64,000 nt of DNA, from the NCBI GenBank assembly GCA_020351875.1, contig CP070671.1, positions 2,553,913 through 2,617,912 of the forward strand. The letters are read 5' to 3'. This document shows positions 58,830-62,212 of this stretch, one piece after another. The position numbers and the translations under genes were made by a program. Position 1 is the first letter of the stretch. Every line of letters starts with the position of its first letter. Under the pieces are notes generated by a model that saw only the letters and a program-made list of their open reading frames with translations, was not told where the DNA came from and did no database searches. Source of the stretch: Chromatiales bacterium. GTDB lineage: Bacteria > Pseudomonadota > Gammaproteobacteria > Steroidobacterales > GCA-2729495.

Positions 58830-58857
58830 AAAAAAAACCCCGCTAGGGAGGCGGGGT
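58830..58857 (-). terminator. Intrinsic terminator of the sigma-54-dependent small RNA
   Basis: Read on the minus strand, GCGGGG-compatible arms CCCCGC (58856-58851) and GCGGGG (58843-58838) enclose the loop CTCCCTA, followed by eight T (58837-58830). It is a textbook Rho-independent terminator for a minus-strand transcript and lies 43 nt before btuD. Confidence 0.92.
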
Positions 58858-59055
58858 GTACGGGTTATTGTTGTTGTCGCGAATTCGGTTACTTGGTCAA
58901 CAGCGAGGCTGTGGTGGCTTATCGTTGTTGTTGTCGCTCGTGCCTCTACTTCTTCTTATAATTTTTCTTCTTGTTGTTGTTGGCGTCTTCTGGCTTCGAT
59001 GTCTGGTGAACAGATGTCGAATTGCCACTGTTGCCGGTAACCTTTTTTGTGCGCG
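58830..59055 (-). ncRNA. Candidate CrcZ-like small RNA (Hfq/Crc titration RNA)
   Basis: A transcript of about 225 nt can be drawn from the sigma-54 start near 59055 to the terminator ending at 58830. It contains repeated A-rich CA tracts: CAACAACAACAAGAAGAA (58983-58966), GACAACAACAACGATAA (58935-58919) and GACAACAACAATAA (58878-58865). There is also an AAAAAA stretch and AAGAAGAAG near 58950. A small hairpin ACAGC-CTC-GCTGT sits between the last two tracts. Tracts of the type AAnAAnAA are the Hfq/Crc binding motifs of Pseudomonas CrcZ and CrcY, which are also RpoN-dependent and intrinsically terminated. The only ORF inside (GTG, 40 residues, very basic) has no ribosome site. Homology to CrcZ is inferred from architecture only. 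Confidence 0.7.
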
Positions 59056-59064
59056 ATATAAATT

Positions 59065-59082
59065 AAGCAAGAGCCGTGCCAA
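59065..59082 (-). promoter_or_regulatory. Sigma-54 (RpoN) promoter
   Basis: On the minus strand the sequence TTGGCACGGCTCTTGCTT matches the sigma-54 consensus TGGCACG-N4-TTGC at every conserved position. GG (59080-59079) and GC (59068-59067) are separated by exactly 10 nt. Transcription would start near 59055. I could not see a CbrB- or NtrC-type enhancer palindrome in the 250 nt upstream. Confidence 0.88.
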
Positions 59083-59338
59083 CAGCGAAAAATCGTTGAC
59101 GTTTTAGTCACTTGACTGATCCTGATCGAGCGCTTTCCGCGCGAGGGCCGCCCATGTGTAATGGATGTCGACACCCCCTGGCTGCCTTTCGCAGTGAAAA
59201 AACCGCGTCAGAGTGCTGATCGGGCGGCGAAAAGGGCCGGCGCCGCGCGGCTCCACGCCTCCCCTCCGGCCGGTGCGGAGCCCCCGGACCCGACTGGCAT
59301 AAACTGGCCAATTCCCGCAGAAACGAGCAGTTTCCCGA

Positions 59339-62212
59339 TCAGGGACTGTAAAACTTTCCAACGCCTGGCCCGGACATCAGCCCTGATCGGGTGTAGACCC
59401 GGCCGTTGATCACGGTCATTTCCACGTTCGCTGCATCGTCGATGTCTTTCAGCGGGTCGCCCCTCACGAGCACCAGGTCCGCCAGCAGTCCCGGCCTGAT
59501 GGCGCCCACGGCGTCGCCGGCACCGATGGCCTCCGCCGCATCCAGGGTGGCCATGCGCAGCACCTGGAAGGGCTGCAGGCCCGTCTGGCGCAGCAACCGC
59601 AGTTCCGCATGCAAGCCCAGTCCGGCGGGCACCGACGGTGCGCCGCTGCCCGCGACGATGCGGGCCCCGCGGCCGACGGCCCGGAACAGGCTCTGCCCCG
59701 CGGTGCGCGCCTCGGCCCGCAACGCGGTGCTGAACGCGTTGGCCTGGGCTTGCCAGCTTTGCCGGTACCAGCCCAGCTCGCCCGGCCGCAGCAGCGCCTC
59801 GACCCGTGAGTCCATGGTCAGGTCGCTGCCGGCCAGCAGGCCGGGCAGGCCAATGGCGCTCAGCGTGGACACGCTGGTCAGGCCTGCCGCACCGGCGACT
59901 TCGATCACGTCGCCGTAGACGAAGCGATTGGCCGCGTCCGGGTAGCCGATGGTCTCGCCGATGGGCCCGCGGAGCGGGATTTCGCGAGCGCCCAGCAGTG
60001 ACCCCGGGAAGGGGTCAACGGCGATGGTATTCAGGCCTTCGACGCCGGCGCGCTGGATGGTTTCGGCGCGTTCGGCGCCGCCCTGGTCGGCACACACCGC
60101 GATGGCGACCGCCGCCAGTCGTTGCGTGGTGGTCAATGCGTTGGGTGCGGTGCAAGCTGACATGACCGGGAACAGCCGCGGCCCGGGTCGTTGCCCGCTG
60201 GCCCAGCTCTCCCGCCGCTCGATGCTCGTCGCCGGATCACGCGCAAACTCGCGCACGCCCGTCACGCCCCAGGCGAGCCAGGCCCGGCCCGCCAGCTGGC
60301 TGCGCGGGCGTCGCGGTTGCACGGCCAGGTCCAGCAGCCCGGGCAACACGGTCAGGTCACGGGCGTCCAGCAGTTCGCCGGGCGGCGGGTCGCGCCAGGG
60401 CCCGATGGCTTCGATACGGTTACCGACGATCACGATATCCTGGGCGAATTCGTAGTCCGGGCCCAGGCCGTCGAATAGCCGCCCGGTGCGAATCACCAGG
60501 CGGCGTTCTGCGGGTGGCTGGGCGGCGCGCCAGGTCAGCGCGACGGGCATCGGCCGCACGTCGCCGCCGTCAGCCGACCAGGTCATCGGCCCCGATGGTC
60601 CCAGCCAGGCGAGCAACTTGCCGCCGTCGATCCACTGCGGGCGCGCGGCATGAGCTTCCGCGACGGTGACCGCCTCCTGCAGCCGCTCAGCGCCCACAAC
60701 CCGCGCCACGGTCAGCCGACCCCCGGCGAGCGTCGCGACATGGGCGCCGACAGGAGAGACATACTCGGCCACCGGTCCTGATGTGATGGGGAGCGCCGCG
60801 GGGGTGGCGTCTTCGTTGAAGGCCAGCCGACCGCCCTGGGCAAACTGCACCGTTAACGTGCCGTCGGGCAGCCATTGTGGCCGGGCCGTGTCGGGCAGAC
60901 CCCGGGCCAGCGTCCGCGCTTCTGCCGACGTGATGTCGATGATTTTCAGGCTCAAGTTGCGGGCGTCGGGATGCGGCTCGGCGAGGTACGCAATGGCACC
61001 GCTATCCGGTCGCCATGCAGGGTAGAACGCTGCGCCGGGCTCCGTTGTCAGCGCACGCAGGGCGCCATCGTCCAGCCGCGCCAGCCACACCTGGAAGCCG
61101 TCGCCGCGATCCGACACGAAAGCGAGGTGCGAGCCGTTCGGTGCCCCGGTGAGTTGCGTGTCCACGAAAGGTGCGGTGGTGAGTTTGCGCACCACGCTGC
61201 CGGAAGCGTCGAGTTCCCAGAGATCACCCAGCGCGGTGACGAAACGCCGGTCGCCAGCCTGCGCCATGCCGGTGATGCCGCGCACGGGCCTGGCTTCGGC
61301 GGTGGGGATGTTCGCTGCGCCCGCGGCGACCCTCGCCCTGGGCACGGCAAGACGTGCCTGGAAGGGCATGTCCGTGCCGTGAAAATCGTCGAAACGACGC
61401 CGACGAATGCGGCCGTCAGCCGCATAGATGAACTGTTGCGTGTCCAGCCAAAGCGCGGGGGAGGTGAGCACATTTTCGCCGCGCGTCAGGGGTTTCACGA
61501 CGGGCGGGTCCGACAGGATCGCGATGCGCAACTCACTGACGCCCGGCGTTCGCTGCACGAAAGTCAGCAAGCTGCCGTCGGGTCGCCAGGACGGGACGTG
61601 CAGCCGGCCCCGGCTGGTCACGACGCGTTCGGACCGGCCATCCTCGCCGACGATATACAGCGCATCCCCGTCGCCGACAGCAGAGACGTACGCGAGCAGT
61701 TCGCCGGACGCGGAATAGGCGGGTTCCCGTTCGTCGCCCGTGGAGAAACTGCGCTGGCGCAGGTCCAGGGAGTCCGGTTCGAGCTCCCAGATGCTCAGGT
61801 CACCGCCGCGATTCGATACGAAAGCGACGCGGCGGCCGTCCGGGTGCCAGACTGCACTGTGATGGTCGTAAGCGCCAAACGTGAGCTGCTGCGGTGTGCC
61901 GCCGTCCGCATCCACGGCCCACAACTGGCGGCGCCCCGGCACGCCGGCATCGAACACGATGCGCTCGCCGTCCGGCGACAGGGCCGGCCGCCGGGCGAGC
62001 AGCTGTGGTTCGGTCAGCGACCGCGCGTTGCCGTCGGCCCCGTTGATCATCCAGATCAGTCCGGCGAGGTCGAAACTGAGTCGGCTCGCGTCGGTGTTGG
62101 CCGACACGCGCATATCGGTGCCTTCCTGCAGCGTGACGACGGTTTGCGCCTGCGCCGCCAGGCTGAAGGCGAGGGCGCAGCCCGCGAGCAGTCGGTGAGG
62201 CTTGCGCTGCAC
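59339..62212 (-). CDS. TolB-like propeller plus degenerate amidohydrolase protein, exported
   Basis: 957 residues from a GTG at 62212, two bases after the upstream gene's stop. Signal peptide ([16 protein letters not shown]). The first part is a PD40/TolB-type beta-propeller with repeats such as [30 protein letters not shown] and [16 protein letters not shown]. The C-terminal third (from about 570) follows the amidohydrolase plan ([20 protein letters not shown], ending [15 protein letters not shown]). The metal motif HxH expected after VLPGLLD is LAVQPR (about 624-629), and the usual GTD near 850 is GSG. The hydrolase is probably inactive or altered. The neighbour is a gamma-glutamyltransferase. 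Confidence 0.85.

Follow-up and report, generated by a model that had tools for sequence, protein, structure and literature searches.

A conserved non-coding RNA family with a predicted PrsR/sigma-54 promoter and A-rich tracts: a candidate Hfq decoy that may work like CrcZ

Introduction

RsmY/RsmZ and CsrB carry GGA sites for RsmA/CsrA, and class II Hfq sRNAs such as ChiX combine ARN motifs with a U-rich 3′ end. Also among the described systems closest to the RNA reported here is CrcZ, which together with CrcY and CrcX is found in Pseudomonas and Azotobacter. CrcZ has been characterized as 407 nt long, with six (ARN)n stretches; it binds Hfq at the distal face and titrates the protein, and phased A-R-N repeats have been given as the ligand of this face (PMC4063720). 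The CA motif is defined as AAnAAnAA (PMC3480352). A review states that the two-component system CbrAB is exclusive to Pseudomonas and Azotobacter (PMC8871633), and the sites of CbrB were described as non-palindromic with TGTTAC-type subsites (PMC6296734).

Another sigma-54 element was described upstream of proteobacterial PEP-CTERM genes, where a 17-nt motif 1 ending in TTTACA is followed, after a spacer of 32–92 nt, by the sigma-54 motif 2, and PrsR was predicted as the activator of motif 1 (Haft et al., 2006; PMC1569441). According to the same source, this cis site and PrsK, PrsR, and PrsT have exactly matching profiles across PEP-CTERM genomes. An RpoN-dependent PEP-CTERM gene with a predicted enhancer upstream has also been described (PMC9850573). 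Among the matches listed in a search of titles and abstracts of the open PMC literature, there was no report of an RNA under the control of PrsR.

Here, we describe a conserved RNA gene with a predicted PrsR/sigma-54 promoter in a 64-kb window, that is, the whole stretch of DNA that was analyzed (64,000 nucleotides). The genome of the window (G000) is a single contig with an estimated completeness of 95.6%. Its family is designated f1, and two further families of the same order are designated f6 and f7.

Results and Discussion

The RNA gene and its distribution

The RNA gene has a length of about 225 nt and covers positions 59054–58830 of the minus strand. The start predicted from the sigma-54 site, at about 59055, coincides with the one given in an earlier note on this DNA, which had proposed a sigma-54-driven small RNA acting as a CrcZ-like Hfq decoy. 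On this strand, an amidohydrolase/beta-propeller gene (ending at 59339; PF01979, PF07676) is followed by an enhancer-like dyad, the −24/−12 site, the RNA, and a btuD-like gene for an ABC transporter ATPase of the B12/haem/iron type (58786–57983), which lies outside the RNA. The intrinsic terminator (ACCCCGCCUCCCUAGCGGGGU, 58857–58830), placed by the earlier note about 225 nt behind the promoter, consists of a GC stem and a U8 run (eight T in the DNA) and is conserved in the alignment. Three parts were absent from that note, namely the dyad at 59173–59157, a covarying long-range stem, and the purine A-rich tract at 58981–58949.

The element was found once in G000 by BLAST. Over 60 genomes (G000 included), 31 gave a BLAST match, comprising 30 of the 37 genomes of f1 and one of the 23 others; a weak match in G054, outside f1, which covered 33 bases at the end of the query (query bases 234–266), was set aside. 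A covariance model (R1) was built from 29 f1 copies after one duplicate of the 30 had been dropped; it matches the RNA at 59054–58830, the window copy being part of R1 by construction. At E values up to 0.001, R1 gave matches in 63 genomes (32 in f1, 24 in f7, and seven in f6) out of 396 from the order. This is an undercount, since G042 carries the RNA yet gave no match in the order-wide search. Two divergent f1 copies were added to those found by BLAST: the copy of G006 (L105), which has the same promoter, B12 neighbors, the GCCAGAAGAC core, and a terminator, and the copy of G027, which was found by R1. Thus, 32 of the 37 examined f1 genomes carry the RNA. The loci taken by the model comprise all 31 R1 matches outside f1 and that of G027.

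R1 and a second model, R2, hold few base pairs (11 and 4, respectively) and act mostly as sequence profiles; the paired columns of R1 at the terminator are misaligned. L174 and L183 were omitted from alignment A3 because the model match stops before the terminator. Part of the 3′ segment UUCGCGACAACAACAAUAACCCGU was searched as an exact pattern in one genome per species (84,980 species) and occurred in 30 DNA stretches. The record titles name Gammaproteobacteria in 18 of these; the others give Pseudomonadota, Chromatiales, Nevskiales, or, in a few cases, a discordant taxon. The discordant titles (Nocardiopsaceae, Myxococcota, Janthinobacterium, and Rheinheimera) were taken as recorded. R2 matched eight of 369 genomes of the class, convincingly in G000, G012, and G042, all within the order of the window. 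The five R2 matches elsewhere in the class (E 8.6e-5 to 8.1e-4) were taken as chance, the fetched stretches having no dyad with a sigma-54 site.

In Rfam 15, no family matched the RNA, and at gathering scores only cobalamin riboswitches were found. The RNA represents a real, conserved family that is absent from Rfam 15 and for which no description was found.

The promoter and its predicted activator

The −24/−12 site TGGCACGGCTCTTGC (59081–59067, minus strand) was identified by a pattern scan as the only TGGCAY-N5-TTGC match in the window; with 0.40 matches expected and at least one in 36 of 100 shuffles, it is, taken alone, not beyond chance. It was accepted because 60 of the 62 orthologous loci (30 found by BLAST and 32 by the covariance model) keep a −24/−12 site and, at an almost constant distance upstream of it, a dyad. 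The promoter lies outside the covariance model that found the 32 loci and therefore provides an independent check. The dyad (TGTCGACATCCATTACA, 59173–59157) is located 92 bp upstream of the −24 element in the window and 90–93 bp upstream in the 60 loci, with a spacing of 92 in 36 of them. Its 17-bp consensus is GTCG-N7-TTAC(A/G), the TTACG end occurring in five loci. By this conservation, the sigma-54 site proposed in the earlier note is real, and the promoter, CA tracts, and terminator are kept in relatives at syntenic loci.

Two loci, L180 (G155) and L181 (G116), have neither dyad nor −24/−12 site, while the RNA body and the terminator are kept; a consensus scan detected no sigma-70-type promoter upstream of either copy. 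Their RNAs match R2, which does not contain these copies, at 74 and 80 bits. Both genomes belong to one genus, PrsR was not detected in them, and they are 86% and 92% complete. L180 and L181 are counted as a single evolutionary case, and parts of these genomes may be missing from the drafts. In L028 and L030 (genus g7), the RNA is a variant whose hairpin differs in sequence, and the dyad contains a GTGACA half-site. PrsR does not reach the cut-off in the genomes of these two loci but does so in another g7 genome, which is less complete.

Dyad and sigma-54 site fit the text description of motifs 1 and 2 at the published spacing (PMC1569441): the 17-nt motif has a TTTACA-like end, and the spacer between dyad and sigma-54 motif measures 75 nt in the window, inside the range of 32–92 nt. 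The total length of 106 bases from the dyad to the −12 element is not specific for the RNA, as it is shared by a PEP-CTERM gene in L118. CbrB was rejected as the protein recognizing the dyad, which differs from the TGTTAC-type non-palindromic subsites.

Nine proteins of G000 matched PF00158. Two are ClpB and ClpA, and the other seven are sigma-54 activators, three of which (NtrC, PrsR, and PspF) score above the respective NCBIfam cut-offs. One activator is NtrX-like and below the cut-off; the others are a PAS-containing protein, an orphan, and a protein we read as PilR-like, which lies behind a 558-aa kinase of, in our reading, the PilS type without transporter domain. None of the seven is CbrB-like, so that control by CbrB, to which the earlier note had pointed, found no candidate in this genome. 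PrsK (TIGR02916, 521 bits, cut-off 300) and PrsR (TIGR02915, 707 bits, cut-off 502.6) are encoded by adjacent genes (G000:C1:2679953–2683582; L113:5954–9583) near UDP-sugar and mannose-nucleotide genes.

A strict pattern for the dyad with the sigma-54 site, built from the RNA's own promoter, was present in 26 of 37 genomes searched, and the reversed control gave no match. It yielded 52 sites, 18 of which belong to the RNA itself (copies of G006 and G042 included). In G000, the RNA has the only strict site; a relaxed pattern gave six sites in this genome versus two for the reversed control. Sixteen of the remaining 34 sites and one from L118 were examined. At nine of these 17, the protein encoded behind the site passes TIGR02595 (eight) or the VPLPA-CTERM model (one), so that the element in front of the RNA also precedes PEP-CTERM genes in the order of the window; the difference is that it would drive an RNA here instead of a PEP-CTERM protein. 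Ten proteins were tested at the 17 sites, of which only that of L109 failed the CTERM cut-offs; the proteins of L120, L122, and L123 are outside these ten. Eight of the 17 sites are not in front of a protein shown to be PEP-CTERM, and no long ORF was found near the promoter at L115, L116, L121, and L124. G013 carries both the RNA and, at a distance of about 1.8 kb, a PEP-CTERM gene preceded by the same element (L119). Taken together, the RNA is a highly probable target of PrsR.

In L116 (G039), L121 (G040), and L124 (G043), a PrsR box with a sigma-54 site was followed by a mostly A-rich, apparently non-coding stretch and a terminator. These loci are outside the B12 neighborhood and not syntenic, and the R2 match is weak in L115, L116, and L124 and absent in L121. 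L116, L121, and L124 are possible further PrsR-driven RNAs.

RNA structure

The minimum free energy of the RNA has a z-score of −3.6 versus dinucleotide shuffles. The long-range stem P1 is formed in the window by GGUUAC (59042–59037) and GUAACC (58892–58887), with double changes in three of the six pairs. A conserved hairpin (UUCGACAUCUG...CAGACAUCGAA, 59021–58995), supported by alignment and covariation, is followed by the conserved core GCCAGAAGA (58994–58983), which is also present in the f7 orthologues. In f1, 15 pairs of the long-range stem (GGUUUC/GAAACC) and the hairpin were tested; they form in 92.6% of cells, five of them show double changes, and none of 500 shuffles reached any of the five measures. 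When the pairing was slid by one column as a control, pairing fell to 58% or 44%, with four and three double-change pairs remaining by chance. In f7, the stems GUAACUG/CAGUUAC and GGAUUU/GAUCC are nearly invariant and therefore give little covariation evidence. The middle stem of f7 varies with compensation: 96.3% of cells pair, and none of 500 shuffles reached the observed values on three measures, whereas the number of double-change pairs was reached by 159 and that of pair types by nine of 500 shuffles, and one slid version holds more double-change pairs than the real one (five versus four). The long-range stems are thus conserved; the f1 stem covaries, and the covariation evidence for f7 is mixed.

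A-rich tracts and Hfq

All five AANAANAANAA matches of the window lie inside the RNA (0.20 expected; five were reached in none of 100 shuffles), which also contains five non-overlapping AAnAAnAA motifs; at least three CA tracts had been counted in the earlier note. Three motifs are located in the (AAN)n tracts at 58981–58949, one in the A-rich tract AACAACAACGAUAA (58932–58919), and one in the 3′ segment UUCGCGACAACAACAAUAACCCGU (58883–58860), which is nearly invariant in alignment A1. The tracts at 58981–58949 are candidate Hfq distal-face sites by motif counts and predicted accessibility.

The enrichment was quantified in three groups of orthologues, A (f1, n = 30), B (f7, n = 24), and C (f6 and L186, n = 6); L180 and L181, having no promoter to set the start, were omitted. 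The mean number of AAnAAnAA motifs per RNA was 4.1, 3.5, and 3.8 in A, B, and C, compared to 0.77, 0.67, and 0.81 in dinucleotide shuffles, with p < 0.05 in 28 of 30, 24 of 24, and six of six RNAs, respectively. Tracts of at least three AAN triplets covered 44, 39, and 40 nt versus 7, 6, and 8 nt in dinucleotide shuffles (p < 0.05 in each of the 60 RNAs). In 25 (A), 22 (B), and five (C) RNAs, the coverage by ARN runs of at least four exceeded that in shuffles at p < 0.05. The enrichment was weaker when the longest ARN run alone was scored, with p < 0.05 in 16 of 30, 11 of 24, and two of six RNAs. The predicted unpaired probability of the tracts was 0.93, 0.91, and 0.78 (A, B, and C), versus 0.47, 0.39, and 0.47 in the remaining core.

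Hfq is encoded in 56 of the 60 genomes. The G000 protein, for which the earlier note had suggested a check, is present and is identical to the Hfq of PDB entry 1u1s, which we take to be that of P. aeruginosa, throughout the distal-face segments VPVSIYLVNGIKLQG and QMVYKHAISTVVP. These segments contain the ARN-binding residues Y25, G29, I30, Q33, Q52, and T61. The 1u1s sequence shares PDB entry 8bvh with Crc.

With these features, the RNA appears equipped as an Hfq decoy of about half the length of CrcZ, and a decoy that does not need Crc would be the simplest reading. We infer the following course of events. PrsR, with its kinase PrsK, would bind the dyad about 92 bp upstream of the −24 element, and sigma-54 RNA polymerase would then transcribe the RNA gene up to the strong terminator. 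The long-range stems may serve as a scaffold that leaves several (AAN)n tracts single-stranded for binding to the distal face of Hfq. Hfq would thereby be titrated away from mRNAs in which A-rich sites lie close to the ribosome-binding site, and activation of PrsK/PrsR would result in the relief of Hfq-mediated translational repression, a CrcZ-like action under another two-component system and without Crc. For a PrsK/PrsR- and sigma-54-activated, Hfq-titrating RNA that forms a new family working like CrcZ without being a member of it, we estimate a probability of roughly one half (about 0.52). The conserved segments GCCAGAAGA and GAUCCAGAUCC exceed what a decoy needs and speak against it, and titration would require that the RNA is abundant.

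The strong conservation of GCCAGAAGA and other non-A segments makes an Hfq-dependent base-pairing sRNA, likewise controlled by PrsR and sigma-54, the main rival. Such an sRNA would be anchored on both faces of Hfq by its (AAN)n tracts and its U-rich 3′ end, both of which are present, and GCCAGAAGA, UUCGCGAC, and, in f7, GAUCCAGAUCC would pair with target mRNAs. The extent of the AAN tracts in f1 is, however, beyond the need of one distal-face anchor, and among the non-A segments only GCCAGAAGA is clearly common to the f1 and f7 groups. In comparison with class II Hfq sRNAs of the ChiX type, ARN motifs and the U-rich 3′ end are common to both, but the RNA described here has more AAN repeats and no known target pairing. 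A pairing sRNA is a serious though rather unlikely alternative, and the Hfq decoy appears the more likely of the two.

A decoy for a different protein that binds A-rich sequences or structures could use the conserved hairpin and the 3′ segment as its site. This is improbable, given that the distal face of Hfq, the segments of which are conserved here, has been reported to bind phased A-R-N repeats (PMC4063720). The general logic of an Hfq decoy, a regulator-activated RNA with repeated protein sites, resembles that of RsmY/RsmZ and CsrB, which are named in the same source; the RNA described here differs from them in carrying AAN repeats instead of GGA sites.

Gene neighborhood

Orthologous neighbors were assigned by tblastn of the window proteins, using the best three matches per locus. 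In at least 27 of 30 f1 loci, the RNA is followed on its own strand by a B12 gene, which encodes the ATPase, the PduO-type adenosyltransferase, or a BtuB-like protein; in the remaining three loci, the contig breaks off within about 170 nt. The adenosyltransferase gene is downstream in seven of seven f6 loci. In f7, the B12 ATPase gene follows in at least three of 24 loci among the matches listed, within the at most 2 kb or so that were fetched. The amidohydrolase gene is found upstream of the RNA in all 31 f6 and f7 loci and in at least 14 of 30 f1 loci. The RNAs of f1, f6, and f7 thus share one chromosomal slot. PduO scored above its NCBIfam cut-off. The BtuB-like and BtuF-like proteins and the ATPase remained below theirs (that of BtuD for the ATPase) and were named by context, which includes a cobalamin riboswitch (57962–57723, minus strand, 85 bits). 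This riboswitch, upstream of the BtuB-like TonB receptor gene, is a second B12-linked RNA element in the locus, about 870 nt downstream of the RNA 3′ end.

This gene order, together with the ATPase start codon about 44 nt past the terminator in the window, would suit a 5′ leader or attenuator through which PrsR controls B12 uptake by read-through. However, the aligned copies end in a terminator with a T run, and the downstream gene is not constant. In addition to the low ATPase count in f7, another ORF precedes the adenosyltransferase gene in L169 and L176, the two f6 loci looked at with that layout, and an opposite-strand ORF separates the RNA from the ATPase gene in L025. The differing intervening genes and the opposite-strand ORF make a leader function for the B12 genes very unlikely, and it was rejected on the distances and the intervening ORFs. 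The association with B12 genes is a conserved gene order in three families that looks positional, because the next downstream gene varies.

Coding potential

The triplet phase of the AAN repeats could, in principle, encode Asn/Lys-rich peptides of a small-protein mRNA. Among 60 orthologous RNAs examined, there was no ORF of conserved position or frame and no conserved start codon, and roughly half of these RNAs contain no ORF that reaches 19 residues. The conserved protein that the earlier note had named as a finding that would speak against its proposal was thus not found among these RNAs, and a coding function, rejected on their ORFs, is hardly credible.

Comparison with CrcZ

The RNA has the broad architecture of CrcZ, CrcY, and CrcX, consisting of a sigma-54 promoter that depends (here by prediction) on an enhancer-binding response regulator, several AAnAAnAA motifs, and a terminator, and like these it is a stand-alone non-coding RNA in a genome with Hfq. 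It differs from them in its length of about 225 nt versus the 407 nt of PAO1 CrcZ, in its long-range covarying stem and the GCCAGAAGA core, in its PrsR-type instead of CbrB-type site, and in its neighborhood, and it is set apart by Rfam and the published descriptions. The covariance search suggested in the earlier note did not recover CrcZ or CrcY among the Rfam matches at E values up to 10, the PF00158 inventory of G000 contained no CbrB-like activator, and no CbrA-like kinase was found.

A Crc partner, which the earlier note had envisaged, was found in none of the five PF03372 proteins of G000. The nearest Crc-like protein (L071, 1492–2259) reached 338 bits to the exodeoxyribonuclease 2jc5 versus 262 bits to Crc and keeps the active-site motifs, which points to a catalytically intact exonuclease III. 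The protein of L070 reached 276 bits to 2jc4 versus 64 bits to Crc, and those of L072–L074 had no Crc match. As the closest relative of Crc in G000, the exonuclease III of L071 may give a clue to how Crc arose.

Despite the shared architecture, a true orthologue of CrcZ/CrcY that is controlled by CbrAB and acts on Hfq/Crc is ruled out for practical purposes by the Rfam search, the activator inventory, the comparison of exonuclease III and Crc, and the different enhancer site, in line with a review that places CbrAB exclusively in Pseudomonas and Azotobacter (PMC8871633). Of the CrcZ-like Hfq decoy put forward in the earlier note, the class of mechanism is plausible, given the exposed AAN motifs and the encoded Hfq, and the affiliation with CrcZ/CrcY is wrong. 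That the RNA works like CrcZ is a reasonable reading. A role in carbon catabolite repression, which the earlier note had considered, gained no support and met no counter-evidence.

PrsK/PrsR and exosortase

PrsR scored over its cut-off in 44 of 60 genomes, comprising 32 of 37 in f1 and 12 of 23 outside f1, and in 24 of the 31 RNA-positive genomes outside f1. Eleven RNA-positive genomes have no PrsR over the cut-off: the f1 drafts G004, G010, G017, and G028 (92%, 98%, 94%, and 87% complete, respectively), all of which have the RNA and the dyad, and seven of the 31 outside f1. Nine of the 11 keep the dyad. G010 and G017 belong to one genus. Conversely, 11 of the 12 PrsR-positive genomes outside f1 gave no BLAST match to the RNA, and the twelfth gave a weak one that was set aside; in one of the 12, G042, the RNA was present by model. 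As PrsR-positive genomes outside f1 mostly have no RNA match, PrsR does not imply a recognizable RNA.

Exosortase (PF09721) was present in 38 of 60 genomes searched and was not detected in G000 (95.6% complete). It was also not detected in the drafts G008, G015, G023, G031, and G035 (72%–92% complete), in which PrsR and the RNA are present. The presence of PrsK/PrsR and the cis site in a genome without detected exosortase is unexpected, because the profile of the cis site was reported to match that of PrsK, PrsR, and PrsT among PEP-CTERM genomes (PMC1569441).

Conclusions

Beside the predicted switching of PEP-CTERM/exosortase surface proteins, PrsK/PrsR may have a second output, dominant in some lineages, in the form of a structured Hfq-titrating RNA, a proposal that we make tentatively and with more doubt than confidence. 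If true, the RNA would be the reason for keeping PrsK/PrsR in G000 without detectable exosortase, and an exopolysaccharide-linked signal would control global Hfq activity in an independently evolved counterpart of CbrAB-CrcZ. Natural tests are offered by the genomes with PrsK/PrsR and the RNA but no detected exosortase, and by the genus that has the RNA without a PrsR-type promoter. If the reading as an Hfq decoy is right, Hfq titration by a sigma-54-driven RNA would have arisen outside Pseudomonadaceae and without Crc. PrsK/PrsR would gain a testable regulatory output, and the exosortase/exopolysaccharide program would be linked to post-transcriptional control.
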